Shown piece by piece: positions 28,825 through 50,357 of a stretch of DNA of 64,000 nucleotides (the stretch's first letter is position 1; the number at the start of each line of letters is the position of its first letter). The stretch covers positions 496,001-560,000 of the forward strand of contig JAQFWX010000001.1 of NCBI GenBank assembly GCA_027605045.1, given 5' to 3'. This stretch comes from Phallus indusiatus (Eukaryota > Basidiomycota > Agaricomycetes > Phallales > Phallaceae). The notes under the pieces were generated by a model. That model was not told where the DNA came from. It did not search any database and worked only from the letters and a program-made list of their open reading frames with translations. Position numbers and translations under genes: made by a program.

Positions 28825-30081
28825 TCACGGGCGTCCTTCATCGATCGTCGCTGCTCCTCTCCCTTTCCTCCTCCTCCGTTTTCCTTCCGGCTCGTCCAGC
28901 TTTCCGTACACTTGGTGAAATCGTCCCGTTCTATTGATGTACTCGAAAAGTACTTTCGTCGCTGTTGGATCTTTCAACAGTTGGTGTTTCAGGACGACAT
29001 GCTGCTTGAAGTGTTGTTGGATCTTGACGCGATATGTGTCGTATCGTGGGCAGATACACAAATAGTGCGTAACAGTTTCCGTGTCCATCTGGCAGGCTGG
29101 GCACATCGGGGTTTCTGATCTTCCTATCTTGTGCAGGTGGCTGTTCAGCTGTGCATGACCTGTCCTTAGCTGCATTAGTACTGTGGTATTTCGTCTAGGC
29201 CACTTAGCGGTTCTTCTCAGGAAAGATGGTCCAGGCAGACTAGTGTCAACTTCCTTCATCTTCTGGTACCGCGGCGATTCTTGCCATTTATCTCTCGCTC
29301 GTACTTTCAGACTAGCCTCCATTGCTTGTCTTGCCGCAGATCTGCTAGTCGGCAAATTCTGTAAGTATCTCATGTGCTCACTGTTTTTGTCCCCTTCAGT
29401 TATAGCTTTTGCAGCTTCTTCATCCGCTTCCTCATTGCCCGCAACTTCTTCATGCCCCGGTACCCATGCTAAGGTGACTTGCTTGCCCTGTTTTTTGTAC
29501 AGATCTTCGACTTCCATCTGAATCTGCTCCACTAGGTGTTGTCCTGGGCCTGCCCTCTGTTTCGCGGTCGCTCTGATCGCCGCTTGATTGTCGAGCATGA
29601 TGCAAATCCTGTTCGCCCATCTCAGCCGTCTCGCAATGTCTAGCGCTAACAGTATTCCTGTTAGTTCGGCTTCATAGACTGTGTGCTCTGTGTCTGGCCC
29701 CAGCAGTTTCCGTCTAACGAGCTTTTGCCCGTTAGCTGCAGTGTACACTGCAGCTGCTCCTATCTTTCCGTCCCGCCCTGAGCCGTCTGAAAATATTACA
29801 TGGCTTCCCTTGTAAGCGTCAAGCCTTTGTTTTGCCTCCGCCTTGTCTGACGCAATCTCTATCTGGTGTCTTTTTTCCCATTTTGGTCCCCAGGTATGAG
29901 GCTTAATGCATTCGTATTTTGCCGTGTGGATTCCAACTGTCCTCATGACCTCGTGTAAGGGTGTTCTGTGCCTTGCTATATATCTTTTAGCCGCTCGGTT
30001 GACCTGTTTATGCAGGATGTGCGTCTTTGGCAGGGTGGCTAGCCTGGTGGCCGCATTACCAATTACCTTTTCTACCGTTAG
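28825..30081 (-). pseudogene. LINE ORF2, 3' part: RNase H and C-terminal zinc finger
   Basis: C-terminal piece of LINE ORF2, cut off from the reverse transcriptase by the gypsy insertion at 30082. The RNase H domain has its acidic residues in place: SDGSGRDGKIGAAAVY, YEAELTGILLALDIARR, IMLDNQAAIRA and WVPGHEEVAGNEEADEEA. Near the end the CPAC-x8-H-x4-C finger (CPACQMDTETVTHYLCIC) is the usual C-terminal knuckle of LINE ORF2. The protein ends in a very basic tail (GKRRRRKGRGAA) and stops at 28825. By itself it has no start codon of its own; the first residues belong to the linker after the RT. Confidence 0.87.
30077..30081 (+). repeat. Gypsy target-site duplication, left copy (GTTAG)
   Basis: GTTAG directly before the 5' LTR, repeated at 39273-39277 directly after the 3' LTR. 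Confidence 0.85.
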
Positions 30082-30401
30082 TGTAACGGATCCACCGTAT
30101 GCGGTGGATTGAGTATATGCCACTTGGGCATATGCAGAGGGCTTCGCCCTCTGCAGTAATTACTATTAGTACTTCTAATAATAGAGGCGCTTAACGCCTC
30201 TGGCTCGCCGTGACGCGGCGAGCCATTATGTAATAACTGTACATTAGTAGTAGTTACGCGCGTGCTGATTCAGCACGCGCATTTTGTTTTTACACCATAA
30301 TAATACAGCACCCTTGGTCTGTTATATTGGTGTGAGGACTACAGCGTGATAAAACTTGTGTACCGTACGCGGTACACTATAAAAAGTAACGAAGCGTTAC
30401 A
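30082..30401 (+). repeat. 5' LTR of the gypsy element (320 bp)
   Basis: Starts TGTAACGG and ends CGTTACA (TG..CA). It contains a string of hairpins: TCCACCG/CGGTGGA, GCAGAGGGC/GCCCTCTGC, AGAGGCG/CGCCTCT, GGCTCGCCG/CGGCGAGCC (30202-30224), GCGCGTGCTGA/TCAGCACGCGC (30258-30280), GTGTACCG/CGGTACAC and GTAACG/CGTTAC. A TATAAAAA lies at about 30376, only about 20 bases before the LTR end. Confidence 0.9.
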
Positions 30402-30486
30402 TCTTTTTTAACACCAAAGGCGTTAAAAACAACCCGCCGCTGTATTAAGCAAGCGAAATTAACCCTTCCTATTACAGGAGGATTCA

Positions 30487-31508
30487 ATGGCTCCTACTAC
30501 CAGGAGTCAGAGTGCACCAGATCGTGGTACACCTGATTCCAATCAGCCTGACCCACCCGGGCCAGTGCAAACCGAAAATCCCGACCCGTCTAGGGAAGGA
30601 ACCCTCGAAGGAGAGTCATCCACATGGGAGAGAGTGGATGCATCAACACAAAATCCCACTCGTCCTGCGTCGCAGACGATGGAACATCAGCCCCAACTCG
30701 CTGATGAAGAAGATGAGGACGTAAAGTCCGTAGCATCTGGTCGCTCCAGACTTAGCGTCAGGAGCGACAGGTCCATCCGAAGGGACGAGACGATGAACGC
30801 TGTTCACGCATCGTTACTCGATGGCGTGAGGAACGGGAATATGTCCCCGTCAGAACTGCAGAGACTAGCTCGATTAATCGAGAATGTCAACGCAGGAGTT
30901 GAAAACCCCGAGCCAGAGCCTGTTACCACGGGCTCTGACAGGGACCAAGTCAGGACAACAGACTTGTCTCCTGAAGCAGAGCCTGCACGAGCACGCTCTG
31001 ACAAAGGAAAAGCAGAGCGGTAGACCCGCCTGCACCAGGTACGGGATCTACTCGTCCTAGACCAGCAGGGCCGACGAGTCGCCTTGCCTATCAATTCACA
31101 AACCCAGCCCCACAAGCTAGGTTTGCTACACCGACGGGACCGACATATGCCAGTCCGTCACCAGCGACAGCTGGTAATTCCCAATCCCCTGAGCCTGCAC
31201 CAACAGGCACCAGACAACGTTCCCAGAACGTTACCCCAGGACCGAGTACGCGTCCTGATAGACCTCCTACTCAAGGAGCTACAGCATATACAGCTCCTAG
31301 AAACCCCGGCCCCGAAATAGAGGCTGGCAGAGAAACAGTGAGACGAATGCACCGTTTCACAAGACAACCGCCTCACGAGTCTGACGCGGTTGGTGACTAT
31401 ATCGATACCGAGATAGCCACGCGACTGGTGAACCAGTCGCGAAATGGAGCACCCCACGAGAGGATGCTGAAGTGGTCGCCCAAGCTGCCCTCGAATACCA
31501 GAGGATAG
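30487..31508 (+). pseudogene. Gypsy gag, N-terminal region (two frames)
   Basis: N-terminal part of the gag protein. The frame opens at the ATG at 30487, 85 bases after the LTR, and reads a hydrophilic, proline/serine-rich, disordered region (MAPTTRSQSAPDRGTPDSN) with a short helical stretch (SELQRLARLIENVNAG). It meets TAG at 31021-31023. The coding sense continues in the next frame (VDPPAPGTGSTRPRPAGPTS and on) from the GCGG at about 31017 to a stop at 31508. From there sense passes to the frame of the main gag-pol ORF, best placed at the CCCC at 31452-31455. Both switches are what one missing base would give. No known fold is visible in this part; Ty3/gypsy gag N-termini are usually variable. 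Confidence 0.65.
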
Positions 31509-34500
31509 CAAGGCTACTCTCCGACAGAGCAATCCGTACGCATGCACGGGCTGTGGAGACGGCCACTAACGCGCTCGAGGAAGCTGTAGCAGGCTCTCTC
31601 GAGACTGACACTCCCAACGAGCAGCAAATGCGGATCATCCAAGATAGGATCCGCATCGCGAGGGACGCGCGTATGAACGCGGTCCGCCATGCTCGTGTGC
31701 TTGAAGGTGGCTATAATGCCATCACTGGCGATAGGATCCCATCGCCAGACCCAGCCACAAGCTCAAGTCGTCCAGACGACAGAGCACCACCGCCTGGCAG
31801 ACAACTGCCAAGGCAAAGTGCCGAGCCCAATGGGCAGAGGCAAGCATCTGCTAACCCAGCAGAAGCACCACGTATCGATCCATATGATGGATACGCTTGT
31901 CGACCACAGTATGGCGAGGATCTCCGCGCCACACCGTTCGATGAGGAACGTGTTGAAAGGTTTGACCCTTTCAACGACGACGCCCCAGTACTTGAGGGCG
32001 TCATAGCCATGGTTCAAGAAGCCCTGATTGCAAACAGGGATATGATGCCAGGCAACTCGCCCCTTGCGAAAGCAGGAGCGAAGATAGGGCTCCCGCCCAC
32101 ATATAGCGGCTCGTCCAGAGCCGAGGACTTCGACAACTTTGTGTCGGGTCTGTTACGCTGGCTACGCGTAAACCACCTGCTTGGAGAAGTCAGCCAAGCA
32201 GAGCAACTCTCCTTTCTAGGCATGCGCCTAGAAGGATTGGCACAAGAGTGGTTCACCCAGAACGTGGAACGAGGTACTCGTCCCATGCATGAGTGGACCC
32301 TAGTCCCCGCTTTACGGAGACTACACGAACGATTCCTCCCACCCCACTCGAGAAGTGAGGTGGCGATCCAGTTCGAACGCGAACGGCAAGGATCGCACTC
32401 TGTACACGAATACATGAGTGCGTTACTCACGCTAGCCAACAGACTAGCGCACCCTCCTGATGATTATACATTCAGGAGGAGGTTCCTTGATGGGCTGAAC
32501 CACAGCCTCGCCGCTGAAGTAGCATTCAGAGGCGGTAGTCCTGAGCAGATGTCTGCTAAGGAACTTCTTGCACTCGCCATCCAAGTAGAGGAGGCGTTCA
32601 AGAAGCGGAGGTCGATAACGGCCTCCCAAGGAAGCACTACCCGTCCAACGGGTAGTAGTGGCAGTAGTGGTAGTGGCAGCAGCAGCAGCCACACCAACTT
32701 GGCCAGACAAGCGCATTCAAACAATATGCGCTTGAACCAGAGGAACCAAGGTCCCTCTGCGCGTCCTCATGAGACGCGAACTAATGGCAATTCCCCATTG
32801 GGGAATCGCCCCTTGAGCTCATCAAGCTCGAGAAATCATAACTCGCAGCCCGCTAGGACTGCCCCAACTAGTACGAACAATCGCACTAGCACTACCCCTC
32901 CCACGTGTTTCAACTGTGGGCAGGTGGGACATTACAGAAATGCGTGCCCCAGACTGAGACAGGTACGAGCCAATGTGGGTCGTATCGAAGAGGTTGAAGA
33001 GACCTCTGGCGAGACATCGAACGATGCCCCGCAGGAGAACGTGGAAGACCCCACAGCTGAACAAGCTGTGGAGGAAGAGGTGGCCCAAGACGAGCCCACC
33101 AACGACCCCGTCGAGGACGACGAGGGCATCCAATACCAATGGGACGATGATGACAATGGTCCCAGTGTATACATGCTCCTCACAATTGGTGACGAGTATG
33201 AGGAGCGCAGACTGCACTTCGCGGTCCACAAGTCATCGCCATTGGATGACAATGAGTCCTCGCTCGCTACGAGCAAGGAACCACTCTATGACCATACGGC
33301 TAGAGTGAGCTCTCGTGCCCCAACACGAGACAGAAACGCATCGAGACCCATTGAGGGTTTCTGGCCAGTCAATGGCCAATTGGCCCACTGCCTAGTCGAC
33401 AGTGGATGCCAGGGGATGATCATGTCCCCTCATTTCTCTCTTGCCACCGGGGCAAGAACCTTCAAGCTCGACAAACCTGTCGTGCTGCAGCTGGCCGTTA
33501 AGGGCAGCAAGTCTTCCATCCAGTATGGAACGTACACCCGAATCCAATTCGGAGGTATCGATGTCCAAGAGTACTTTGACATCGTCAACATCGATCACTA
33601 TGATGTGATCATTGGCGTCCCATTCCTGAGACGCTACAACATCTGCCTGGATTTCAGCAGAGGTACAATCACCCGCGACGGCGAGGTGATTGACACCAAT
33701 CACCATGTGATTGGACACGCTCCTGAAACAGGAGCGATGGTGCTAGCCAGCACCCAACATTCCAGCTCCTCCGTCCCTGAGATGACGGAAGAGAATATCC
33801 CAGCACTCATCGAGTACTGGAAGAACAAGTACAGTGACCTGTTCGGTCCTGTCCCTTCCCGACTTCCCCCATTTCGGGAAGTGAATCACCAGATTCCTCT
33901 TATTGAGCCCAATAAGAAGATCCGGTACCACCTTCCCAGGTGTCCGGATGCGCTCAAAGCGCTACTCGCTGAAAAGATTCAGCGATACGTAGCTGCAGGC
34001 TGGTGGGAACCAACTGTAGCTACACAGGCAATCCCTATGCTTTGCCTGCAGAAACGAGCCGTAGTCCTAGCACTACGGACCGTGTTCGATCTGCGCCTGC
34101 AGAACGAAAACACAGAGAAGGACGTAACGCCCTTCCCTGACCAGGAAACCATCCGCCAGAACGTGGCGAGACACAAATACAGATCAAAAATTGATCTGAC
34201 TGAGGCGTACGAGCAAGTACGCATAGTCCCAGAGGACGTCCACAAGACGACCTTTGCCACCATCTATGGCACTTTCAAGAGCCATGTCATGCAGCAAGGA
34301 GACTGTAATGCCCCATCGACGTTTCAACGTCTGATGACTCACATATTTAGGGACTGCATCGGTCGTTCGACGGATGCATACATAGACGACGTGTTCGTCT
34401 ATTCAAACACAATAGATCTGCATCAGCAGCATCTAGAGAATGCCTTCTCGCGTCTGCGAGAAGCACAACTTTACCTAAGTAGTCGTAAAGTTGATTTGTA

Positions 34501-35650
34501 CTCTAAGCGACTGGAGTGCTTAGGCCACATCATCGACGATGATGGCATCCATCCCGATCACGAGAAGATGGACAAAATACGTGAGTGGAGAACTCCACGC
34601 ACGTATAACGATGTCCAGAAATTTCTGGGCCTCGTACAATACGTTGCGGCATACCTACCAGGGGTAGCCGCATACACTACACCACTATCAGGGTGTACGT
34701 ACAACAACAGACCGTTCGTATGGACGCCGTTGTTGAACAAGTGCTTTGATTCAATCAAAGCACTCACGCGAAAGGCTCCTATCTTGAAGCCTATTAACGT
34801 GGACGACCCAGATCCAATTTGGGTCGTAACTGACGGCTCTAAATGTGGCGTCGGTGCCTATTATGGGCAAGGGCCTACATGGCAAACGTGTAGGCCAGCA
34901 GGGTTTCTCTCGAAGAAGTTCACCCCTGCTCAATACAACTACCGCACCCATGAGCATGAGCTCATCGCGGTACTTGAAGCCTTCCTCAAGTGGGAAGACA
35001 AACTACTAGGGCGTAGATTCACCCTAGTAACGGACAACGAGGCCATGGTCCACTTCAAGACCCAGCCTCGCATGTCACCGCGTCAAGCACGGTGGTATGA
35101 ATACCTGTCTCGTTTTGACTACGAGACGATTCATGTCAAGGGCGTCACTAACAATGTCGCCGATGGCCTCTCTCGTTATTACGAAGAGGACACTCCGGAT
35201 GAGGTTCACCCTCCGGAGGTATACGTCAATGCTGACGTTAGACTTGATCCCGAAGGGGATCATCTTCCCATCGAAAGAAGGGATGAAGTGAGAGTGAACG
35301 TTATTACACGTTCACGAGTACGAGAGGAACCTCGAGTTGAAGGTCCCTCAAATACTACACCTTCTGATATTACAGAAGCGCAATCCGATGAGGATATACT
35401 TGCTCTAAGTGCAGAGCAAGACAGCAAGCTTCTTAAAGCCAAAATTGAGGGCTTTGCTGAATTCACCTCGCTGATACAGCAAGGTTATCACAAGGACCCA
35501 GTATTTAAGCTGGTTCTTGCCAACCCGAACGCTCACAAGGCGTTTGGAATTAAAAATCAACTGATCTTTACCAAGAATCAGTTCCTCCGCGATGTATTAT
35601 GCGTCCCCATAACGCATTTTACAAGGGGAGGAGGATCACTGAGATTATAA
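31397..35650 (+). CDS. Gypsy gag-pol: capsid, zinc knuckle, protease, reverse transcriptase, RNase H
   Basis: Single long open frame, open from 31397 with no ATG at its head; it is fed by the upstream gag frames. Domains in order: gag capsid (RWLRVNHLLGEVSQAEQLSF, ERERQGSHSVHEYMSAL; 32.1-32.6 kb); CCHC knuckle CFNCGQVGHYRNACP (about 32,910); and aspartic protease with LVDSGCQGMIMS (about 33,395) and VIIGVPFLRRYNI. Next come reverse transcriptase, with KIDLTEAYEQVRI and catalytic YIDDVFVYS (about 34,380), and RNase H, with VTDGSKCGVGAYYGQG, THEHELIAVLEAF and VTDNEAM. The start of the integrase follows. Gag and pol are fused in one frame with no shift between them. The frame breaks off at 35650 in the integrase zinc-finger region because of one missing base near 35605-35608. 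Confidence 0.87.
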   Translation, partial: LYRYRDSHATGEPVAKWSTPREDAEVVAQAALEYQRIARLLSDRAIRTHARAVETATNALEEAVAGSLETDTPNEQQMRIIQDRIRIARDARMNAVRHARVLEGGYNAITGDRIPSPDPATSSSRPDDRAPPPGRQLPRQSAEPNGQRQASANPAEAPRIDPYDGYACRPQYGEDLRATPFDEERVERFDPFNDDAPVLEGVIAMVQEALIANRDMMPGNSPLAKAGAKIGLPPTYSGSSRAEDFDNFVSGLLRWLRVNHLLGEVSQAEQLSFLGMRLEGLAQEWFTQNVERGTRPMHEWTLVPALRRLHERFLPPHSRSEVAIQFERERQGSHSVHEYMSALLTLANRLAHPPDDYTFRRRFLDGLNHSLAAEVAFRGGSPEQMSAKELLALAIQVEEAFKKRRSITASQGSTTRPTGSSGSSGSGSSSSHTNLARQAHSNNMRLNQRNQGPSARPHETRTNGNSPLGNRPLSSSSSRNHNSQPARTAPTSTNNRTSTTPPTCFNCGQVGHYRNACPRLRQVRANVGRIEEVEETSGETSNDAPQENVEDPTAEQAVEEEVAQDEPTNDPVEDDEGIQYQWDDDDNGPSVYMLLTIGDEYEERRLHFAVHKSSPLDDNESSLATSKEPLYDHTARVSSRAPTRDRNASRPIEGFWPVNGQLAHCLVDSGCQGMIMSPHFSLATGARTFKLDKPVVLQLAVKGSKSSIQYGTYTRIQFGGIDVQEYFDIVNIDHYDVIIGVPFLRRYNICLDFSRGTITRDGEVIDTNHHVIGHAPETGAMVLASTQHSSSSVPEMTEENIPALIEYWKNKYSDLFGPVPSRLPPFREVNHQIPLIEPNKKIRYHLPRCPDALKALLAEKIQRYVAAGWWEPTVATQAIPMLCLQKRAVVLALRTVFDLRLQNENTEKDVTPFPDQETIRQNVARHKYRSKIDLTEAYEQVRIVPEDVHKTTFATIYGTFKSHVMQQGDCNAPSTFQRLMTHIFRDCIGRSTDAYIDDVFVYSNTIDLHQQHLENAFSRLREAQLYLSSRKVDLYSKRLECLGHIIDDDGIHPDHEKMDKIREWRTPRTYNDVQKFLGLVQYVAAYLPGVAAYTTPLSGCTYNNRPFVWTPLLNKCFDSIKALTRKAPILKPINVDDPDPIWVVTDGSKCGVGAYYGQGPTWQTCRPAGFLSKKFTPAQYNYRTHEHELIAVLEAFLKWEDKLLGRRFTLVTDNEAMVHFKTQPRMSPRQARWYEYLSRFDYETIHVKGVTNNVADGLSRYYEEDTPDEVHPPEVYVNADVRLDPEGDHLPIERRDEVRVNVITRSRVREEPRVEGPSNTTPSDITEAQSDEDILALSAEQDSKLLKAKIEGFAEFTSLIQQGYHKDPVFKLVLANPNAHKAFGIKNQLIFTKNQFLRDVLCVPITHFTRGGGSLRL

Positions 35651-35820
35651 TCAGTGAGGCCCACCAAATTGTTGGGCACTTCGGACGTTACAAAACGTCT
35701 CAGTACGTTAGACAAGCGTACTGGTGGAAATCGATGATTGAAGACATCGATACGTTCTGCAGATCCTGCGGAACGTGCCAGACCAATAAAGGGAGAATAA
35801 TCACCCCAGTGGTCTGTTAA
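35610..35820 (+). pseudogene. Gypsy integrase zinc-binding domain (displaced frame)
   Basis: In the frame next to the main ORF the HHCC zinc finger of the integrase can be read: H at HNAFYKGRR and SEAHQIVGHFG, then YWWKSMIEDIDTFCRSCGTCQTNKG with the CxxC pair. The frame starts making sense right after CCCC at 35605-35608. It ends in TAA at 35818-35820, while sense moves on at CCCC 35804-35807 to the integrase core frame. The piece is thus one segment of a pol protein broken at both ends by one-base losses in C runs. Confidence 0.78.
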
Positions 35821-37004
35821 AACAACTCCCGATTCCCAATAGACCTTGGGAATCGATTGGAATGGACTTCGTCGGTCCACTACCCGTTTCAAACGGCCAC
35901 GACTTCCTATTCGTCGTGATTGACAGACTGACCTCTATGGTTCGTCTGATGCCAACCACCACCAAGCTGACCGCCAAGGGCACAGCCTGGTTATACCTCA
36001 GTGAAGTCGTAAGACTCCACGGTGTCCCTGACTCAATCGTGAGTGACAGGGATGCACGATTCACTGCCAAGTTCTGGCAGGAACTGCAACGCCTAATGGG
36101 GACACGATTGCTCATGTCCACGGCGTTCCATCCGCAAACGGATGGATCTACCGAGCGAGCCAATCGCTCGATTGGCCAAATACTTCGTTCCGTGATACAG
36201 AACGATCAAAAAGATTGGGCCGAAAGGATCCCAATGGTGGAGTTTGCTATTAATAGCAGCACCAGCGAAACCACTGGTTTCGCGCCGTTTGAACTCAATT
36301 ACGGCTATCTTCCCAGTTTGGGAAGGAAAATTGAGACGAACACCAAATTCAAAGGTGTTCAACACTTTGCTCAACAGGCAAAGTGGAATCTCATGATAGC
36401 GCATGACGCTATCATAGCCAGTCGCGTTAAACAGGCTCACTACGCGAACAACTCACGGCGCGATGCACCGGAGTATAAAGAGGGTGACCTCGTCTATCTG
36501 TCGACGAGGAACCTCAACCTCCCCAAGGGGAGAGTTAAGAAGTTGATCCCGCGTTATGTGGGACCATACAAAATATTGTCCGCTAAAGACAATATCACAG
36601 TGAAACTTGAGCTCTCTGAGGAGCTCAAGCAACGTCGCATAAATCCCGTATTTCACGTGGATTTGATTAAACCTCACATCGCTAATGACGACGAGAGGTT
36701 TCCACGCCGCGATACACTCACGGCGTATGATTTTGGACAGCCAGACGATGCTGAATGGCACGTCGAGGAACTCCTAGCTCATCGCTGGAGTGGAACTCGC
36801 GAGAAAGATCTCGAGTTCCTAGTCCAGTGGACCCTTGGGGATACCACTTGGGAACCTTACAGTAACTGTAAGGACTTGCAAGCTCTAGACGAGTACTTGC
36901 AATTACGAGGCGTAAACGAGCCTCGGCAGCTGCCACGACTATCCAATCACGGAGAGTCGCGGACCAGCAACAAGCGCCCAGATCCCACTCGGGGATCTGC
37001 TTGA
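35808..37004 (+). CDS. Gypsy integrase core and chromodomain
   Basis: Carries the DDE integrase core: MDFVGPLPVSNGHDFLFVVIDR (first Asp), VSDRDARFTAKFWQEL (second Asp) and HPQTDGSTERANRSIGQILR (Glu). A GPY/F-type module follows (VKKLIPRYVGPYKILS, NPVFHVDLIKPH). Near the end comes a chromodomain, WHVEELLAHRWSGTREKDLEFLVQWTLGDTTWEPYSNC, typical of chromoviruses; it steers insertion to particular chromatin. A short basic tail follows and the stop is at 37004. The first ATG of this frame is at 35862, but it is expected to be made as part of the gag-pol polyprotein rather than from its own start. Confidence 0.88.
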   Translation, partial: SGLLKQLPIPNRPWESIGMDFVGPLPVSNGHDFLFVVIDRLTSMVRLMPTTTKLTAKGTAWLYLSEVVRLHGVPDSIVSDRDARFTAKFWQELQRLMGTRLLMSTAFHPQTDGSTERANRSIGQILRSVIQNDQKDWAERIPMVEFAINSSTSETTGFAPFELNYGYLPSLGRKIETNTKFKGVQHFAQQAKWNLMIAHDAIIASRVKQAHYANNSRRDAPEYKEGDLVYLSTRNLNLPKGRVKKLIPRYVGPYKILSAKDNITVKLELSEELKQRRINPVFHVDLIKPHIANDDERFPRRDTLTAYDFGQPDDAEWHVEELLAHRWSGTREKDLEFLVQWTLGDTTWEPYSNCKDLQALDEYLQLRGVNEPRQLPRLSNHGESRTSNKRPDPTRGSA

Positions 37005-37089
37005 AGATCCCACCCACAGGGATCCACTGGCACTTCACTGCTACGCGGTGAGGTAATTTTCACTTGGGCGCTCCATGAGGCCGCCCAAG

Positions 37090-37096
37090 TATATAA
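37090..37096 (+). promoter_or_regulatory. Possible internal TATA box before the extra gypsy ORF
   Basis: TATATAA 41 bases before the ATG at 37137. It could serve a separate transcript for the downstream ORFs. This rests on position and motif only. Confidence 0.3.
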
Positions 37097-37136
37097 CCCA
37101 AAAGTCCGTTCACGGTCTTTTCTCCTCAACACCCCC

Positions 37137-38277
37137 ATGCCTGACAGCAAGGGAAAGCAACGCGAACGATCACGCTCGCGGTCGCCTACGCCGCAACCTG
37201 TTAGTAGGTTCAAAAAGCAGAGGCTCAACTGGCCCTGCAAAGGTCCGAATGGACCTTAGACGCGATGGACGGATGCATATCCGTCTATCATAACAATGAT
37301 AGTTGCACTGCGTGCAACGACTTTGCCAGTCACCTGGCAGGCCCCGCTGGCAGCGGGGCAATCATCCTTGACCATGATATGGTCAAGCAGGCCGTCTACA
37401 AGGCCTTTCCCTTCATAAGGAGGGAGTACTATCATCTAGACGAACGTCTAGAAGAAGCTGAAAAGGACGTCAAATCCTTGACAGACCACCTCGACGATGC
37501 GAATCGTCGTATCTGCGAGCTGAAAGCTCGCATTGCTGAACTTGAACGTTCAGCGTCGACGGCAGGCCCGTCGACTACCCCATCGACCTCCAAAAAGCGG
37601 TCGAGAGACCAGGCCGATAAAGCGCCTGAACCATCCCAGGCAGCCCCTTTGCCTGATATTTTCAACGACATGTCGTCTGACGACGACATGGAAGACATAG
37701 TCGATGATAACGACTATGATGACGACGCCTCCATCGCGTCGTCCACCAAACGCAAACCTCAGCGTACCTACGCTGATGCAACCAAGGCATCGGGCTCTCG
37801 CGATGCTGCCCCGGTTTCTCCAAGGAAACCCTCTGGTCCGTATCCACGGACCAAGCCAGGATGGGACTCCAACCGGGACCCATGGCCCTTCTTCGTCAAG
37901 GGCTTCGACCCCACTGTTAGTGGGGATCACTCTCTGGTGCCTGGCACCCCAATCCTACTGCATGGTATAACACCTGCAGCCTCGACGAACCATTGTTCGT
38001 CGAGATTGGAACCCGGGTTTGGACCGACCCCCCGGTGTTCACGTACCCCGATGACAGGGGGGTTCACATGCGTATTTCATACGCATGGACTCGCTGGCGC
38101 AGATCCATGAAGGAGCGTCGCCTGGCGAGAAAGACCGCCAAGCTTGAAGCTATGGAGGCTGCCGCCAACCGTCCATCGGTGGTGTCTATCTCGGGAGAAC
38201 TCATACACCCCGAGATCAAGTATTTAATCAATACTTGGAATGCGGACCCTAACCAGGTCCTCCTTACATCCGACTAA
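37137..38277 (+). pseudogene. Gypsy extra ORF 1, downstream of integrase (broken twice)
   Basis: Unrecognised protein encoded between integrase and 3' LTR. It opens at the ATG at 37137 with an arginine/serine-rich stretch (KGKQRERSRSRSPTPQP), then continues in a second frame after the A5 run at 37212-37216. A third frame follows after CCCC at 37947-37950, reaching TAA at 38275-38277. The middle part has a clear coiled coil (YHLDERLEEAEKDVKSLTDH and LDDANRRICELKARIAELER). A serine/threonine linker with a basic cluster (KKRSRD), a very acidic segment (MSSDDDMEDIVDDNDYDDD) and the sequence DPWPFFVKGF follow. There is no signal peptide or membrane segment, so it is not an envelope-type protein. 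Function unknown; a nucleic-acid- or chromatin-binding accessory role is a guess. Confidence 0.6.
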
Positions 38278-38891
38278 TGTCGGATGGATCATTAAACCCT
38301 CAAGATGTTGAGGTGTTCGCATGGCTCAAACGAGTCACACGTACTCGTGAAGTACGTGCCAAGTTCCTCGAGAAGGCGGCTGAGTGCCTCCTCGACCCCG
38401 CACTTACTGTGTGGGAAGAAGTTCTCGGTGGTAAGGGTAATTCCTCCACCCACCTGCCTTCCACGCTTATGGAAGGCTACACTCGTTCCTTCGAGTGCAA
38501 ATCCCCCTCCTCCATTACCATAGAGGAGGTGATTCGCTCCATGCATGCCAATGGAGCGACGACAAGACGCGTCACTGAGGTGATCGCGCCCCTTCTCCAA
38601 CGATACGCCAATGGAGAAGATGTCAATCGCATCGCGCATGACTATCGCGTGCGCCGTGGACTGGATCGTCCAACAAAAAAGGCGCGTACGACTCAGTCGT
38701 CCGCCCCCGCCGTCCATGCATCGGTTTCACCTGCCAGCATCGTGGCAGGCCAGCCTAACAAGGTCTACTCCCCGTCCGTCCCAATTCAGATGACGGACGA
38801 GGAATTGTTAAGGCCCCCTGAGGACCTTGACGCGCCGCATCCGAGTGCCTCGGAGAGCATGGAGATTGACTACAGCAATCCCTCTGACTGA
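38277..38891 (+). CDS. Gypsy extra ORF 2 (204 residues), function unknown
   Basis: Starts at the ATG at 38277, which shares one base with the TAA of extra ORF 1 (TAATG). It could therefore be made by coupled re-initiation, or be the end of the same protein displaced by one base. The N-terminal half is helical (DVEVFAWLKRVTRTREVRAK, FLEKAAECLLDPALTVWEEVL), followed by a second helical block (IEEVIRSMHANGATTRRVTE). Then come a basic patch (RVRRGLDRPTKKARTT) and a Ser/Pro-rich tail ending ESMEIDYSNPSD. No family recognised. Its protein-like composition and lack of stops argue that it is real and was recently maintained. Confidence 0.6.
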   Translation: MSDGSLNPQDVEVFAWLKRVTRTREVRAKFLEKAAECLLDPALTVWEEVLGGKGNSSTHLPSTLMEGYTRSFECKSPSSITIEEVIRSMHANGATTRRVTEVIAPLLQRYANGEDVNRIAHDYRVRRGLDRPTKKARTTQSSAPAVHASVSPASIVAGQPNKVYSPSVPIQMTDEELLRPPEDLDAPHPSASESMEIDYSNPSD

Positions 38892-38941
38892 TTACAGTCA
38901 GACGCCTCCTCTTCGCGATCCCATGACTTGGAGTCCAAGTC

Positions 38942-38953
38942 ACAAGGGGAGGA
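38942..38953 (+). other. Polypurine tract of the gypsy element
   Basis: ACAAGGGGAGGA directly before the 3' LTR, the expected primer for plus-strand DNA synthesis. Confidence 0.75.
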
Positions 38954-39272
38954 TGTAACGGATCCACCGTATGCGGTGGATTGAGTATATGCCACTTGGG
39001 CATATGCAGAGGGCTTCGCCTCTGCAGTAATTACTATTAGTACTTCTAATAATAGAGGCGCTTAACGCCTCTGGCTCGCCGTGACGCGGCGAGCCATTAT
39101 GTAATAACTGTACATTAGTAGTAGTTACGCGCGTGCTGATTCAGCACGCGCATTTTGTTTTTACACCATAATAATACAGCACCCTTGGTCTGTTATATTG
39201 GTGTGAGGACTACAGCGTGATAAAACTTGTGTACCGTACGCGGTACACTATAAAAAGTAACGAAGCGTTACA
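38954..39272 (+). repeat. 3' LTR of the gypsy element (319 bp)
   Basis: Identical to the 5' LTR except for one C missing from a CCC run (39019-39020, against 30147-30149). The missing base breaks one arm of a hairpin that is perfect in the 5' LTR. Confidence 0.9.
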
Positions 39273-39277
39273 GTTAG
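39273..39277 (+). repeat. Gypsy target-site duplication, right copy (GTTAG)
   Basis: Matches 30077-30081; with one copy removed, the LINE reading frame is continuous. Confidence 0.85.
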
Positions 39278-41127
39278 GTGAAAAGGTAGGATGTTTGCGT
39301 GCGCATCTAATATGTCAGTAGCCGTGGATCTCATTGCACCTGTAATTAGGATGGCTGCCTCTCTCTGTACTTTGGCCAGCTTTTTAATCATGCCCTTTGC
39401 CCCCATCGCTCCCGCTGTTCCTTTTGCTAGAAATATTTCCGCTGCGTACAACATTTTTGGTAGCGCTACCGTCAAAAAGTACCGTCTCATGTATCTCATT
39501 GCAACTCCCTTTGTTGGCTTGGCGAGGCGCCTGTATTGGCTGAGCCAGGTTATCCCTTTTTGCAGCGCATAGTTGGCATGAGTTTTGAATCTTAATTCCT
39601 CATCCAGCATGATGCCTAGGAATTTATGGTGAGTTTTTGGTTCTATCTGCATACCATTTATGTTGATTGCTGGTCGCGATCTAGGGATTGTCTTTTTTGG
39701 GTTGTCTGGGTCTGCTTCTCGCTTTCTTGAGAAGCCGACTAGGGCAAACTTGTCTATCGCGAAAGCGCAGTTGTGCGTGGTTCCCCAGCTACTGGCTCCA
39801 GTGGGTTTGTCCATCATCTCCTTCAGCTTTTCCACTGCTTCTTCTAACGTTTTGGCTCTTGCTAGTAGTGTTGTGTCGTCCGCAAAGATCACCACCTCCT
39901 CTTTTTTCTTGTCTTCTATAATGTCTGCTAGAGCTGCATTGTAGAACGCGAAGATTGGTCCGGATTCGGGCCGTCCTTGATCTAAACCTATCTTCAGTTC
40001 TCTTGGCTCAGATTTATAGTTGTCAAAGGTTAGAGTGGTTCTTCTTTCCCGTAGCACTTCACTGAACCAATCAGTATACTGCTTTGGCACTCCCCGCTTT
40101 CGCATGCTGTGTGTTAACCATTCCGGTAACACACTTGGAAAGGCTGCTTTGATGTCTAGGAATAGTGCTGCCACTTCATCCCCTGCCCGCCATGCATTCT
40201 TGATGAATGACACTGTATGGTGGATCGCGTCTGTTGTGGTTCGACCCGGCCTGCATCCAAATTGGGTTGGAGGTAATAATGCGTGTTTGTCAGCGTAGTA
40301 CAGTAAGTCTTCTGATACGCATGATGATAACACTTTACCAATAGTATCTAACAGTGCAATTGGTCGGTATGCGCCTGGGTTTGTATAGTCGGGTTTTCCT
40401 GGTTTTCTTATGACCACTATGGTAGAGTCTTTCCACTCTTGCGGAAAGTACTTTAACTTAAAGGTAGCGCGGAATAGTGGGCCGAGGATTGGGATGATAA
40501 GGTCTGCGGTTTTTATCAGCACTACATTGGGGATGCCATTCGCACCTGGCGCCTTATATGGTTTTAGTCGCTCAATGGCTCTCCTGATCTGTTCATTGTT
40601 TATTGGCTTGAACTTGAATGCTGCTGGTGGGTATTTGCACTGTTGTGGTGGTCTTGGGTAGGTTCTTGTGTGCGGGAAGAATGTGCCGAAAAAGAGGTCT
40701 GCCTTTTCTCCGTCCTGATCTACTTGTATCTGCTCGCCATTTTGATTGACGGCTTTTAGTGACAGAGTTTTGGAGTTAGCACCATCGGTTGGCTCGCCTG
40801 ATACATACTTGTGAGCTACCCATACTGTTTTTTCATCCATCTCTTTTAAGAAGCCTTCCCAGTGTGATTGTTTTGCCTCACGGATCATTTGAGCATACCG
40901 GTTTTGCTCTGCTCGGAGTTGGTTGTGTATTGGGTCCTCTGTATCATGTCGCCTTTTCCGACTTCTGTTTCTGAGGCTTCGCACATTCTTGTTTGCTACC
41001 GTCAACTCCTCATTCCACCATCGCTTAGAGAAGGAGGTGATGTGCGCTTTGGGTACTGTCTCCTTGACTGTGTCGCTTAAGGCTTTCATTAGTTTTGATA
41101 AGCGTTCGTTGAAGTCTTCTCTGTCTG
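39273..41127 (-). pseudogene. LINE ORF2, middle part: reverse transcriptase
   Basis: Carries the reverse transcriptase of the LINE: IRRAIERLKPYKAPGANGIPNVVL, WKDSTIVVIRKPGKPDYTNPGAYRPIALLDTIGKV (the PxxxYRPI block), FGCRPGRTTTDAI and AALFLDIKAAFPSV with the first catalytic Asp. GLDQGRPESGPIFAFYNAAL follows, then VVIFADDTTLLARA with the catalytic FADD (usually YADD or FADD in LINEs), and HHKFLGIMLDEELRF. The frame is cut at its 5' side by the solo LTR (41128) and at its 3' side by the gypsy element (39272). No stops or shifts lie inside, which indicates recent activity before disruption. Confidence 0.88.
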
Positions 41128-41523
41128 TGTTAGGGCTACTCAGCTCAAGCTAGAGGGAGGGGATCCTAAGAGAATATATTGGAAGGGAAACTAACTACTC
41201 ACCTAGAGGGAGGGGATCCTAAGAGAACAAGCTTAGGGACCCTCACTCTAGGTACAGCGACTATATACATAAAACGACGACGCGGCGTGCGGCCCTGACA
41301 CAGCTAAGTGCCAGACGCCCAAGCCGAACCTAAGCGATGTGATGTCACGGGCATCACGCCGGGTACGAGCGCGCGACGCGCGCGAGTAGAGAAAGTGAAA
41401 TAGAGACAGAACAAGGAAACGGAGAGTGAAAGTAAAATACGGAAATGATAAATAAAATAGAAAAGAAACGATGCCGATGATAATAAATAAGAAAATGAGA
41501 GACGGCGGTAGCGTACCCTGACA
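41128..41523. repeat. Solo LTR (396 bp) inside LINE ORF2
   Basis: Begins TGTTAGGG and ends CCCTGACA (TG..CA with inverted ends). It is flanked by GTCTG at 41123-41127 and 41524-41528. Inside, CTAGAGGGAGGGGATCCTAA occurs twice (about 41149 and 41205), followed by a TATATACATAAAA. The sequence bears no likeness to the 319/320-base LTR of the neighbouring gypsy element and lacks its hairpins. It is thus the remnant of a different LTR element after LTR-LTR recombination. Confidence 0.85.
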
Positions 41524-44128: not shown

Positions 44129-45035
44129 ACGTCTCACCGATAGTGTCAAAATCGTCCTCAGCGCCCGCTTTTTAGCTTCTGTCCTAATTTCCTCCCAAAC
44201 GTGATTGAGATTCCTCGTCTTTTTGTTTCGATATTGTCACTGCAGCTTATTGAAGTGTTTCTACATAATTTTTTTTTATTATAGCATACTATGTTCTTGA
44301 GTTCGATGCTAAATTTGCTTGCCAGAGCCAAACAATGAACTATGCATTTTCATCATGGTAAATATACGGAATCTGCGAAAACTTGTAATAACTTAACGTA
44401 TGCTTTGTCGTCCAGATGATACAATCTTATCTCAGTCACCGTGGTTGAATACAAACTCGATTGGTTTCGTATTGGGGGCGTGGGTCACAAGTCTAGGGTT
44501 TAAGATATAGGGCTATAACTCTCATCACAATACACGAACCGGGTATCTGTATATTTCAAGGGGTGTTATACAAATGTGATAACGATACTTGGGCGCATAT
44601 CCTGAGCAGTTCATGATGACCACATAGTGCTGATGTTGTCCGACTAGCACTTCTCTTGATCCCGGAGTACATATCGTTGAGAGATGAAAGGAATGACATC
44701 ATCAGAATAGTCTTCCAAGCGGCGAACGTTGATACAAAGTTTAAGATTGACTGACAGCGTCTCTGATAATACACGAGCTAAAGATTTGTATCAGACCATG
44801 ACAGTGTGCCGAAGCGGCTATATGACCGTTGAAGGGAACTCCGTTACTTCACAGATACAAAAATGAGTATATGTATTTGAATAAATTACTTCGCGTTTAA
44901 ACCACAATTGACGATTCCATTTACGATAATGCTAGAGAAACCCATTAGAAGTTATTGTCAAATAGCCAGAGTTGTTAGTAACAAACATTGAGTAACCGTG
45001 CCAAATTACTCCGTGTGAGAGAAAGTTCTATAGTT
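44129..45035. other. Host sequence right of the LINE, no gene seen
   Basis: About 900 bases with short frames only; nothing recognised. Confidence 0.4.
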
Positions 45036-46726
45036 CTAATCCTGAACTAATTCGACGTTCATATCGTGTTCTATGTCATCAGTAACCTGCCGTTCAGGCT
45101 CAGCTAGTTCCACAACAATTGATTGGTGCACATGTTGAAGAACATTCGAAAAATGAAGTGTTGGCAGAGACAAATTGCTAGCCTCGATCTTGGCAGCATT
45201 GAGCTGGCGAAGATCCAGCGTAAAATTGGCGACCAGGATGCATGACAGGCTTAAATAGATATTAATATGGGTCGTAGACGTGATCGCAAAATGATTTACT
45301 CACGCGTTTTGAAAAGACTGTAAACCTTGAACGAGCAGGAAAATGTTTGGTGTCTAATTAAGTCAAGTAATAGTTAGTAGAGTTAGTAGTTTTAAAGGAA
45401 AAGGGGGGGGAAATTACGTTATCGGATGGAACCTGAAGAAATAATGTGGTGTTCATACATAAACTGCCTTAAACAGTGAATACTATTGTAACCTACCGAT
45501 GATGCCACAACTACAACGGTTACAGTAAAAAGAATGACAAAGCTTGTATATTGGTGCGTCATGAGCCGATCATAGCACAAAAGGTGAATCCTCACCAAAA
45601 TCTTGAAAAACCTAAAACTTCTATTACGTTTGCTCAAATGAAATATAGGAATATCGAAACTTACTCTGGGAAAGAAGTACAGAAACAAGACTATGGTAGT
45701 TGTGAATTCCAGCTTCGCGTTTCAACTTCCATGTTCCCCAGACCTTCCACAAAATAATGCCAAATACAATAATATCCGTATAAACGACACAGACATCGGC
45801 AATAAGTTCAACCAGTTTGGTTGTAGCTATCCACGTTCAATATTTCAAGTGATATTTAAAATGAACATGAAGCTTACCAGTCACCCTAATATATAGAGAT
45901 GATTGTCAACAAACGCTGCACGTTAGAAACCCTGAGTCACTGACATTACAAGACATTCGGAAAATGCTATTGTGGCTAGATATAATGCTAAGATAGTGAA
46001 ATTATGATTCTGAAGTTCAACTAACCATACAATCTTGTACTAATGCATGCAAGGAGACCAAGGAATAACGCGATAGTGAGAATTTTGCTTCCTCGACAGA
46101 TTGAATATGCCCGAGCGACCAATAAACCTGTCGCGATTATTTACCCTTGAGAATAATACATAAAGTATAAGTAAACACACACCCTGGACACCAATAAATG
46201 CCACTGTGTCGAACGTTAGTGATGTAATAACCAGCATGTTACAAGATCTTTGAAAAAAGTTGAAAGGAAACATGATCTTTCAAGCTAAGGTATCTTACCT
46301 TCCTATCTAAAACCAGGTTAGGGATGATAATAATGAAAACTTTCAGCTACGCTGAATAATTAACTCACTGTCACGTAGTTTAATGAAAATCGAAATCCAC
46401 GAGCGATCAAAAACCCATATCTTGCGAAGATATATAATATCCCCGGTGGACTGAATGGTTTAAACCATATATACTCTACTTCTCGTGAAAATTGTAGGAG
46501 AAGATCATAAAACAGGAGGACTGATCCTTTGTTTAATAATTCTCTTCCTCTAATCTAAATTGCTCACCAAGGGTACTGATAATGATCCAAGTAAGGGTGT
46601 AACTAATCTTTACAATCAGTATACACAATCAATAATGGGTGCAGAAAGAAACACATACCCTATAAAAGCGTTATCGATAGAAGCATCCATAATTGCGGTT
46701 GTTGTGCTAATGTTGGCGCTGTTCAT
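45036..46726 (-). CDS. DUF6533-type multi-pass membrane protein, copy C
   Basis: Third paralogue of the family at 8.2 and 26.1 kb; function unknown. Start MNSANISTTTAIMDASIDNA at 46726. The following exon carries SREVEYIWFKPFSPPGILYIFARYGFLIARG (DUF6533 signature). Membrane segments follow (FIGVQGVCLLILYVLFS and others), then the conserved WGTWKLKREAG-type cytosolic motif (about 45,700). The tail (LRQLNAAKIEASNLSLPTLHFSN, VLQHVHQSIVVELAEPERQV) ends NVELVQD at 45036. Its tail is closest to copy A in the KIEASN segment. It sits on the other side of the transposon block from copies A and B. Exon limits in the middle are not fully settled. Confidence 0.66.
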
Positions 46727-48721
46727 GTTGTTAACCGGAGGTAGTTATTGGAATTGAGAGTTAAGTTTTCATCCATATAGCCTTTTAAATACCATCCACG
46801 ATGTCTATTAATAACATTAGGCATTGTTCCCTTCTTCGAGATCCGAAATATTGGGGTGAACCATTCTTCTTAGGGTGAAATGGGACCTGAAAAAAGGTGT
46901 AATATGTATCCAGTTGGTCGGGGCATCTTCAACTCCGAATTCAGTAGGCACTATATGTTTAATACTTTTAAGTCATTACCAGCAGGACAACAATGCCTTT
47001 CCCTGATTTCTGTTATCGAATGAAATGATAATTTCCTTGGAAGGATTGCGCCCCAATGCGTTCCGTGTAAATTTGATTGCAGGGCATTATTAGGCACCTG
47101 ATTAAAGTATGCAGCCTTTAGTAATTTTAGTAATGTTGAGGAAATAAAGAACAGAACACCAACACTTAGCTAACCAATAGCGGAAGCACACTAGTAATTG
47201 CATGATGTCCGTATCGGAACACACGGAATTTTTAATTTTGCAACGACTCATAATCGTTGTTATTCACTTGCATTTTGCAAATCATCTGCTGAATGACACG
47301 ATCTGAAGCTGTCAGGTAATTGTTGCTATAGTATTCGGCATCGCCGCCGTGCGACGGGTTTGATCGTTATGGTTGATTCATAAGATTTTGAAGTGTAGAT
47401 TTCGTAAATGAAGAAGCATTCCATCCGATATTGGATGAGCTGTCGAAGTCCGTGAGTCCCGATGATGCCTTATGTAAATGATCGATGTTTGTCGACACTG
47501 ACTTATTCCCGCCAGAGGTCAAGCCATAAACCAACCTTTTACTGAACACGGTGAACAGTAGGAATTTGCCATCGCCGATATCATTCGGATATTCAATTTG
47601 ACTCCGATCCATTGAGGTCCAAATGAAAGTCCTTCCCGGGAGAAAGGGGTAGACTTTGAACTTGGTATTCCAAAATGAAGTCTGGGTCTCAGTCCTATCC
47701 GTTCATAACCATCGCGCATCAAAACACAGGTCTGGCACATCTATGAGTAGAGACAATAGGTGATGGAAAATGTGATACAAACGTGCGGGCGGTGCTCGGG
47801 AGCACATGCTGAAGATTTGTGATTGCATCATTCGGATTTCTTGGCAAAATGTATTGACTGGCTCACTTGGTGCGGATGACACTGCCAGCGCTATATCCGT
47901 TCTATAACTTTTTTAAGTGTTGAACGTTGATTTTTCAAAGATAAAAATAACAGACAGCGTACGAACCAACCGTAATACCACCACCCTTCCACTCAGAGTT
48001 ACCCGACTCAGGTTATCCCTTTCTCAGGTTGTGTCAATTGGGTAAACTGAAAACATTATCGCATTCCTAGGCGAGAGTCATCTCCTTCTGTAAAAAATGA
48101 ATGAGATAAAAGATAATAAACTTTGTGATAATGTAATGGAATGCTGACATTTTCTGAGACAGATCTTGAGAGCTTTGCATTTTTGTCGCCTCAATTGAGC
48201 GCGGTGACCGTGCGGCCGGTAGTAAAGTCGAACGTCAACGTCTCTGAGCAGAACGGGAGGAAGCAGGAATATCAGACCATTGCTTTGAGCATTGTTGCTG
48301 GACACGCTTTGGAAGGCCATCCTACGTCGTTGCGACTAATGGACATGGACTCCCGGACGCGGGAGAGGTTTATCATACAATGCTGACAAATACTCGGAAT
48401 TGACCGCGGAGCTTTGACCAAGCCCCACTGACATCTTTTAAGCATTCTTAAGAGCTCAAGATCTCACTCGATCCGAATTTCTTTCAAGGATGTAGTACGA
48501 TAAGAAGCAACCAGCAGAGCTTTTTTCAAGTGCGCTGAACAGTTGTCACGAGACAAAGGCAGTCGCGACTCTTTTACACGTGCAACGAACAGAAGCTCCT
48601 AATTACAGAGTCATATTTGAAGGATAAAGTTTGGTCTTGGAAGATATAAATAAATATCCCTCGTTCCAAGAGAATAAATTGCAAAGGAAGATATAATAAA
48701 TATAAAGCTTCAAAATAGTCC
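46727..48721. other. Gene-poor stretch
   Basis: About 2 kb with no recognised gene. The longest reasonable frame (47367-47612, minus; about 110 codons open from 47702) reads FLLFTVFSKRLVYGLTSGGN and similar without a known motif. It may be a piece of an unknown or decayed gene. A plus-strand frame at 48141-48386 is equally unassigned. Confidence 0.35.
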
Positions 48722-50214: not shown

Positions 50215-50349
50215 GGTCGTGGTATGAGGGAAGGTGTGTTAGTGGTAAGGTGGGCTTAGACGATTTGGGTTTGATTAGACGACAAATTATGTGTAGGAGA
50301 GATAGCACGACGGGCGCAGTGCTCGGACAACATCAGGTCGATCTGAGCG

Positions 50350-50357
50350 TTTATATA
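50350..50357 (-). promoter_or_regulatory. TATA box of the manganese peroxidase gene
   Basis: TATATAAA on the minus strand, 136 bases before the ATG at 50214. Confidence 0.45.

Follow-up and report, generated by a model that had tools for sequence, protein, structure and literature searches.

Does the Ty3/gypsy retrotransposon at positions 30082-39272 of a 64,000-nucleotide stretch of Phallus indusiatus DNA (the window) really consist of one short hairpin after another, and, if so, what keeps it in that state? A first-pass annotation had described serial hairpins through its LTRs, gag, pol and extra ORFs and had offered two causes, selection for an RNA made of serial hairpins or template switching of the reverse transcriptase. 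The serial hairpins are confirmed, with an excess in the 5′ LTR and all five ORFs; of the two causes, selection is favored here.

Hairpin density in the element and its relatives

The element belongs to a multicopy Ty3/gypsy chromovirus family (family A), of which it is a young member. As in other chromoviruses, LTRs, here 99.7% identical to each other with one gap, and a 5-bp target-site duplication enclose gag and the order PR-RT-RH-IN, with a chromodomain (Table 1). In the integrase frame, rve scored 29.6 bits (cut-off 32.6) and the chromodomain stood at its cut-off (25.1). Its group is that of the Tf1/sushi-like chromoviruses, and among the best 120 of 730 protein relatives, those with names belong to Agaricomycetes, with relatives there at ~60% identity. 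Positions 29900-39400 contained no Rfam match at gathering score, and two scans of viral_contigs found no DNA of relatives outside the element's own genome. Within that genome, the hairpin property was present in seven further family A copies (99.7-99.9%) and, more weakly, in a sister family (B) with ~71% DNA identity to A. Of the Ty3 loci sampled, only those of A and B had it, and the other families lacked it. A hairpin-rich ORF at locus L013 lies antisense to an LTR-gag piece; since a family B RT motif follows both LTR-gag pieces at L013 at the expected distance, we assign them to B. A hairpin-rich patch at L014 (7.0-7.8 kb) was rejected as this element, being a short palindromic repeat sequence.

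Table 1. Features of the element and its flanks, with perfect inverted repeats (arm at least 6 bp, loop at most 12 nt); for ORFs, the comparison is the mean (maximum) of 1000 codon-preserving shuffles
Feature	Position	Strand	Remarks
Target-site duplication GTTAG, 5′ copy	30077-30081	.	Flanks element; 3′ copy at 39273-39277
5′ LTR	30082-30401	+	Ends TGTAACG...CGTTACA; hairpin series in itself; 10 repeats vs. 1.1 in dinucleotide shuffles
LTR hairpin	30292-30338	+	Both arms differ between subfamilies, pairing retained in predicted folds
First ORF piece (gag1)	30487-31023	+	N-terminal part of gag, judged by position; no Pfam match; hairpin-rich, 8 vs. 1.4 (6)
CTCGATTAATCGAG hairpin	30869-30882		7-bp arms, loop 0
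Gag-protease-RT-RNase H open frame	31397-35650	+	Retrotrans_gag, zf-CCHC, RVP_2, RVT_1, RT_RNaseH; hairpin-rich, 75 vs. 12.7 (24), counted over 31481-35647
Compensatory pair within family A	34503-34523	+	Sites 34506/34520
Longest perfect hairpin	34740-34764	+	12-bp arms, loop 1; 11-bp arms if a 3-nt loop is kept
Integrase frame	35790-37004	+	rve below cut-off, Tf2-1-like SH3, chromodomain; hairpin-rich, 25 vs. 3.6 (11)
Hairpin	35830-35855		10-bp arms, loop 6
Hairpin	36363-36385		8-bp arms, loop 7
Hairpin	36606-36629		9-bp arms, loop 6
ORFx	37208-38110	+	Weak coiled-coil-type matches below cut-off; densest in hairpins among the five ORFs, 28 vs. 4.6 (12)
ORFy	38253-38891	+	No Pfam match; hairpin-rich, 13 vs. 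2.9 (10)
3′ LTR	38954-39272	+	

At the thresholds of Table 1, the element held 185 perfect inverted repeats (20.1 per kb) against 22.8 in shuffles, while the remaining 54.8 kb of the window held 165 (3.0 per kb); counts in the other 27 bins of the window were 0.3-2.2 times expectation. Each of the five ORFs exceeded all 1000 shuffles that kept protein and codon usage, at 4.5-7.0 times the mean, which bears out the earlier claim that the arms are drawn largely from synonymous choices. When dinucleotides were also kept (100 shuffles), no maximum reached the observed count, the nearest being gag1 (7 vs. 8); at arms of at least 5 bp, the 18 repeats of gag1 equaled the shuffle maximum (18). Family B showed 3.9-5.8 times as many repeats as expected. 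Between 33200 and 35050, where some fifty repeats had been counted by eye (one per 35 bases), we found 55 nonoverlapping ones with arms of at least 5 and loops of 1-15, or one every 34 bases, compared to a mean of 17.1 and a maximum of 24 in 100 shuffles and to 16 in a LINE piece of equal size. The LINE had been said to be free of the pattern, and its pieces indeed gave 6 vs. 3.7 and 4 vs. 2.0 repeats (dinucleotide shuffles). All five hairpins that the annotation quoted are present, except that the arms at 34740-34764 measure 12 bp rather than 11. The excess peaked at loops of 4 nt and did not extend beyond about 20 nt, and the codon register of pairing was near even (51/43/52, vs. 6.6/9.3/9.9 in codon shuffles), so pairing is not confined to the most permissive register.

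Base pairing is likewise predicted along the element RNA. With dinucleotide shuffles, the folding-energy excess (MFED) averaged 42.3% (lowest of 25 fragments, 25.6%), and codon shuffles gave 33-41% in three ORFs; family B reached 11-17%, four further Ty3 families lay between -1.3 and 1.4%, and 47 kb from elsewhere in the window gave 0.5 and 1.4%. By strand, MFED was 42% for sense and 31% for antisense. In the windowed folding check that the annotation had proposed, 36 element segments of 250 nt had mean z-scores of -6.3 on the sense strand and -5.7 on the antisense strand, compared to -0.2 and -0.4 for 20 flank segments. Sense z was below -3.5 in all 36, and under a codon-shuffle null, z fell below -2 on both strands in 27 of 27 segments.

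Stem geometry and divergence between copies

We then considered the shape of the hairpins. For loops down to 5-8 nt, complementarity continued inward 56-64% of the time, but the figure dropped to 4/28 at loop 4 and 7/21 at loop 3; pairing therefore ends at the 3-4-nt loops that physical hairpins need. The probability that an arm extends by a further pair was 0.54-0.66 at 4-7 bp and 0.30 at 8 bp (19/63), where chance is about 0.25, and this stop was sharp (63/105 vs. 19/63, p = 0.0002). Arm growth thus had a ceiling of 8 bp in family A and of about 6 bp in family B. Among 8-bp frames of family A, perfect stems were enriched 27-fold and those with one mismatch 3.4-fold, and those with two mismatches stood at 1.0; family B gave a weak signal (perfect, 1 vs. 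0.6; one mismatch, 8 vs. 4.5). A synonymous repair was possible in 10 of 36 one-mismatch stems, against 50% expected, the mismatches in good stems being biased to positions where a synonymous change could not have created a pair.

Divergence between copies was analyzed as the ratio of paired to unpaired sites, against a neutral simulation. In family A, paired bases diverged less than simulated in seven of seven comparisons, which overlap in their pieces and share history, and significantly so in three: L016 (0.46 vs. 0.73 simulated; 0/120 simulations), L054 (0.34 vs. 0.75; P = 0.008) and L051 (0.29 vs. 0.81; 0/80 simulations). The other four were not significant (L003, P = 0.067; L055, 0.14; L043, 0.17; L053, 0.11), and in family B, the effect appeared in one of four comparisons and was absent in three. 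We relied on simulation because another signal, avoidance of stems by shared variants, was strong when stems came from one reference copy and vanished under symmetrical ascertainment, where shared and private variants no longer differed in stem content (p = 0.17 and 0.28). We give no weight to a folding-effect test of shared variants, a weak test in which A (n = 18) gave P = 0.037 for the sense strand and 0.485 for the antisense, and B (n = 42) gave 0.118 and 0.255, respectively.

Specific structures were not, as a general rule, conserved from A to B: across seven B copies, retention of family A stems did not exceed that of control pairs (0.50-0.52 vs. 0.49-0.53), although single stems look covariant. 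Retention of family B stems in A was somewhat higher than that of controls (0.58-0.62 vs. 0.50-0.54). The compensatory double changes that the annotation had suggested looking for numbered two in A and two in B; since controls slid by 1-3 bases in A gave 0-1 but those slid by 5 gave 2 and 9, they are illustrative only. Sites 34506/34520 carry A-T in the window copy and 15 others, G.T in L049 and G-C in L051, and in the LTR, three of four double changes between the window copy and L016 pair (slid controls, 0-2).

Probable selection for folding and its alternatives

Our best reading, with a probability of roughly 0.65, is selection to keep the element's single strand folded into consecutive local hairpins, similar to viral GORS but stronger. 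The selected form would be the genomic RNA, perhaps with minus-strand cDNA or antisense RNA, in hairpins whose loops span about 3-12 nt and whose stems reach about 8 bp at most. The comparisons above suggest that folding itself, rather than any single structure, is selected, as the viral GORS proposal holds. More speculatively, pervasive folding could let each strand pair with itself in stems below the length needed by Dicer or dsRNA-binding proteins, which would leave fewer sense-antisense duplexes and reduce targeting by small RNAs; a benefit through compaction, for packaging in virus-like particles, has about the same likelihood. Against shielding, a maize study reports that more small RNAs map to structured regions of TEs (PMC10760457). 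The host genome has Piwi- and RdRP-domain matches. We regard as rather unlikely a whole-genome hairpin code whose ruler caps stem length at 8 bp in A and about 6 bp in B and which serves as a nucleic-acid armor under active RNA silencing; sense and antisense or cDNA strands would then self-fold below the size acted on by dsRNA sensors and Dicer, and the element would proliferate despite the silencing system.

A mutational drive is less probable still. The element's reverse transcriptase would switch template at near-palindromes and so perfect hairpins, with protein constraint as a filter; this would suit a property that is element-specific and hairpins that are local and, for A stems, mostly unshared with B, and a correcting process could also reduce divergence at paired sites. 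Template-switch mutations can make perfect RNA hairpins, with loop inversion as the clearest footprint in the available part of that report (PMC8794818), but exact inversions numbered 0 in 895 hairpin-copy comparisons, a test of limited power since 795 loops were identical. One-arm conversion between A and B left no clear footprint either: differences were slightly more frequent in left arms (118/352 vs. 96/355), but arm asymmetry was within control (0.355 vs. 0.324, sd 0.035), and the left-arm excess flipped for B stems (47/185 vs. 59/186). Three of five hairpins with at least two changes (window copy vs. L016, L003 and L004) were one-armed, a number too small to weigh, and only 1 of 83 window-copy hairpins had two changes relative to L016. 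The strong excess of imperfect stems, their mismatches at sites that amino acids keep unfixable and the abrupt 8-bp stop also argue against template switching, leaving room for a minor role.

The hairpins might instead be needed in minus-strand cDNA or an antisense transcript and not in sense RNA, which we consider quite improbable. One-mismatch coding stems showed A.C 17 times and G.T once (scaled shuffles, 6.7 and 4.4; p = 0.0015), an excess that would also suit the mutational drive, through priming on the nascent minus strand; in stems of at least 8 bp, A.C steps were enriched 4.1-fold compared to 1.8-fold for G.T and 1.9-fold for A.G/C.T, and family B LTR-gag pointed the same way in small numbers. 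However, the bias was absent from family B pol, and A.C and G.T were both at 4.8-fold in A pol with dinucleotide shuffles. G.T steps were more often synonymously fixable in shuffles (73% vs. 59%), which accounts for part of the excess, and the test was picked post hoc with the data already seen. The divergence test came out alike on both strands. On the strand that matters, the evidence points both ways, the 17:1 excess of A.C over G.T to the minus strand and the higher sense MFED to the sense strand.

Dispersed packaging signals, in which every hairpin binds Gag or another element protein, are a shade more doubtful again: hairpins of similar size throughout, extra ORFs included, and a stem limit of about 8 bp would be compatible with binding sites, but 159 hairpins had no common loop motif by composition and short k-mers, their loops being mildly A/T-enriched, and spacing was irregular (CV 0.75; random expectation, 0.61). 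An origin in chance, composition, codon usage or an assembly artifact has negligible probability in view of the codon-preserving shuffles and the recurrence in further copies and a sister family.

Known systems and significance

In the available text of a coronavirus report, several hundred consecutive local stem-loops run along the genome with high MFED, and stem positions and pair identities are poorly conserved between relatives (PMC7642675). The element shares these traits: its native folding energy lies well above shuffles, consecutive stem-loops extend beyond cis-elements, and pair positions are poorly conserved between A and B, with the partial exception of B stems in A. MFED there is 15% for SARS-CoV-2 and at most 23.4% among the values given, compared to 42% here with dinucleotide shuffles, the shuffling programs being different (PMC7642675). 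Those are vertebrate viruses, whereas ours is a retrotransposon with near-perfect Watson-Crick arms and an 8-bp ceiling, a combination that the same text does not describe for coronaviruses. GORS belongs to positive-strand RNA viruses with host persistence; for an LTR retrotransposon, we therefore use "GORS-like" and do not class it as a GORS member.

Nematomorph mitochondrial genes also carry many perfect inverted repeats in coding sequence through degenerate codons, with gains and losses; in the portion of the study at hand, these reach 284 bp, and imperfect ones are not in excess, which inclines the authors toward conversion as the mechanism (PMC6649704). In contrast, the element's arms are short and its imperfect stems in excess. 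The genomic RNAs of yeast Ty3, Ty1 and HIV-1 likewise contain stable folds, as mosaics with a stable share of up to 30% (Ty1, Ty3) or about 40% (HIV-1) in the available excerpt (PMC11381356), whereas all 36 element segments were strongly folded in silico. The annotation knew of no described retrotransposon with this property, and our literature search found none, although comparably dense folding is reported for some RNA viruses.

If selection for folding is correct, genome-scale ordered structure extends from RNA viruses to an LTR retrotransposon, in a form stronger than in the available coronavirus text (PMC7642675). The weaker sister family and the unstructured Ty3 families of the same genome are built-in controls, and what such structure is for could be tested in a fungus, an organism that lacks the vertebrate immune system. 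The results also show a protein-coding element whose synonymous sites hold a further, dense layer of information, with a sharp 8-bp limit for which any mechanism must account.

Inverted-repeat packing and anatomy of the element

According to the first-pass annotation, the Ty3/gypsy retrotransposon at 30082-39272 (plus strand) is packed with perfect inverted repeats, a pattern missing from the LINE on either side, and both claims held. When perfect repeats (arm of at least 6, loop of at most 12) were counted in 2-kb bins (32 in all), those over the element, five in number, contained 5.6-10 times the shuffled number, compared with 0.3-2.2 times in the remaining 27; near the window's end, bin 62001-64000 had a mild excess (13 vs. 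5.8). Against 1,000 codon-preserving shuffles, the test which that annotation had proposed, gag-pol contained 75 repeats vs. 12.7, IN 25 vs. 3.6, ORFx 28 vs. 4.6, ORFy 13 vs. 2.9, and the first ORF 8 vs. 1.4, and in each of the five ORFs the observed count exceeded every one of the 1,000 shuffles. The folding check it suggested agreed: z was -6.3 (sense) and -5.7 (antisense) over 36 element windows, and close to 0 in 20 flank windows. The folding-energy excess over dinucleotide-keeping shuffles (MFED) was 42.3% in the element vs. 0.5% (1-28000) and 1.4% (45001-64000).

The LTRs (99.7% alike, one gap, termini TG...CA) are flanked by a 5-bp duplication, GTTAG, at which the host sequence, a minus-strand LINE, is interrupted. 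Pfam recognized gag, a CCHC knuckle, aspartic protease, RT, RNase H and a Tf2-1-like SH3, together with an integrase core below cut-off and a chromodomain at cut-off; thus, the element is a chromovirus.

Coordinates of the element's features and of the interrupted LINE in the window
Feature	Position	Remarks
LINE RNase H piece	28828-30081	minus strand
5' LTR	30082-30401	~320 bp
ORFx	37208-38110	after integrase; no confident match, weak coiled-coil-type matches; densest hairpins among the five ORFs
ORFy	38253-38891	after integrase; no confident match
3' LTR	38954-39272	~320 bp
LINE RT piece	39251-41149	minus strand; 39273-41149 beyond the element

The 67-Mb genome holds at least 40 copies of the RT region at 97-100% identity (40 scored of 127 candidates), hereafter family A. 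Among the best 120 of 730 protein relatives, the closest is 62% identical and most are unnamed; the named ones come from fungi such as Trametes and Pleurotus, presumably all Agaricomycetes.

Distribution among Ty3 families of the genome

As a sample of Ty3 families, 20 loci around Ty3 integrases were fetched (of 150 scored of 369 candidates). Repeats stood at 0.7-2.0 times the codon-shuffled number in 38 of their 40 ORFs (≥400 aa), the two exceptions being a family A piece (7.4x) and an ORF antisense to the LTR-gag of a sister family, B (4.6x). Family B (about 71% identical to A at the DNA level and 80% in RT protein; 51 exact RT-motif matches genome-wide) reached 3.9-5.8x in nine 2.5-kb loci with dinucleotide shuffles and 3.7-5.4x in nine ORFs with codon shuffles, with MFED of 16-17% in pol and 10.6% in LTR-gag, and had 1-2 arms of at least 8 bp per locus vs. 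19 in A. A more distant type (L044, L045) gave 1.7-1.8x.

Some side observations were also made. Another Ty3-like family (L019:2876-8236, L020:5488-8199) had a mild excess of 1.8-2.0x over codon shuffles (z 3.4 and 2.4). The short sequence at L014:7000-7800 is dense in inverted repeats, being composed of palindromes (among them CAGGTACCTG and ACCCGCGGGT), and L042 and L043 carry a similar-looking insertion; it has the appearance of a small non-autonomous mobile repeat and seems to have no relation to family A. Directly after the LTR (30402-30430; L013:8420-8480), A and B have a stretch in common, TCTTTTTTAACACC, which does not open with the TGG typical of tRNA primer sites; self-priming, as in Tf1, is a candidate alternative.

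Stem geometry and the origin of the hairpins

The excess was restricted to loops up to ~20 nt. Inward pairing went on in 56-64% of cases down to 5-8-nt loops and dropped to 4/28 at loop 4 and 7/21 at loop 3; this limit is that of a bending single strand, unlike that of a protein-binding DNA palindrome, and is what physical hairpins would show. Outward extension by one pair occurred at 0.54-0.66 for 4-7-bp arms in family A (63/105 at 7) vs. 0.30 at 8 bp (19/63, p 0.0002), and in B pol (L035) at 0.51, 0.36 and 0.10 for 5, 6 and 7 bp. Whatever makes the stems ceases at about 8 bp; the stop was absent from the LTR-plus-5' piece of A alone, where just 7 arms attain 8 bp.

As to which strand matters, the indications diverge, the A.C bias pointing to the minus strand and MFED to the sense strand. 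In family A stems, A.C steps (G.U on the folded minus strand) outnumbered G.T by 17:1 (p 0.0015, a test chosen post hoc), in part because G.T is more often synonymously fixable; the bias was not repeated in B pol. MFED was 42% sense vs. 31% antisense, and the codon-shuffle z was slightly more extreme on the sense strand (p 0.09). Stem pairs (30082-38951) showed an orientation, the 5' arm holding C in 385 and G in 264; in coding stems the proportions were 0.346 vs. 0.223 (shuffles, 0.298 vs. 0.255), the opposite of the G-C excess reported for RNA stems in PMC8794818.

We consider that a single strand under selection for serial short-hairpin folding best explains these stems (probability about 0.65). 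Mikhailov et al. (PMC6649704) reason that selection working against protein constraint must give an excess of imperfect repeats, while conversion yields perfect ones only. In family A, perfect 8-bp frames stood at 27x expectation, those containing one mismatch at 3.4x and those containing two at 1.0x, and 10-bp frames with one mismatch at 12x; family B gave 1.7x and 1.8x for perfect and one-mismatch 8-bp frames. Only 10/36 one-mismatch stems were pairable by synonymous change (50% expected), mismatches at unfixable sites being commoner than expected, and these mismatches were identical in every copy covering them (1 to 19 copies). In conserved columns, stem codons departed from the homologues' majority no more than others did (2/49 vs. 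8/127; 9/37 vs. 54/119); in variable columns the proportions were about equal (24/39 vs. 58/102).

That template switching, a copying process perfecting hairpins, built the stems is improbable: besides the imperfect stems, exact loop inversions numbered 0 in 895 comparisons (795 without any loop change) and no one-arm pattern separated A from B. Among hairpins with at least two changes between the window copy and L016, L003 or L004, 3/5 were one-armed, a small sample; older copies also differed from one another in a few places by at least three changes lying close together, and in the LTR such clusters include a hairpin changed in both arms with predicted pairing kept.

Selection for folding was also sought in present-day copies, a small set (the 1-kb RT piece was read in 17 of 39 other scored RT copies). 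Lower stem variation by a first count was not proven once a fairer count was used. Against a neutral simulation carrying the same ascertainment, paired-base divergence was lower in 7/7 family A comparisons and significantly so in three: L016 (paired/unpaired ratio 0.46 vs. 0.73 simulated, 0 of 120), L054 (0.34 vs. 0.75, P 0.008) and L051 (0.29 vs. 0.81, 0 of 80); L003, L055, L043 and L053 were non-significant (P 0.067-0.17). It was lower in 1/4 family B comparisons (P 0.05 sense, 0.013 antisense). Since A stems were retained in B at control level (0.50-0.52 vs. 0.49-0.53, seven of nine B loci) and B stems in A a little above it (0.58-0.62 vs. 0.50-0.54), general folding appears to outlast particular structures.

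Likeness to known systems and possible function

The closest known property is the genome-scale ordered RNA structure (GORS) of RNA viruses. The coronavirus paper PMC7642675 describes several hundred consecutive stem-loops at poorly conserved positions and MFED of 15% in SARS-CoV-2 (maximum 23.4%), and proposes that selection acts on folding as such, perhaps because it protects against recognition. The same pattern is seen in family A, at ~42% vs. at most 23.4%, though the shuffling programs differ. PMC11381356 describes yeast Ty3, Ty1 and HIV-1 RNAs as mosaics in which at most 30-40% is stably folded, and the open-access literature searched yielded no retrotransposon described with such dense hairpins.

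The host genome has Piwi-domain and RdRP-domain matches, so folding may shield the element from RNA silencing. Proteins that recognize dsRNA usually bind stems longer than the ~8-bp ceiling, which would hold the stems under that size. Evidence to the contrary comes from maize, in which more small RNAs map to structured TE regions (PMC10760457). Packaging is the main alternative as the benefit of folding; neither a common loop motif nor regular spacing was seen among the hairpins.
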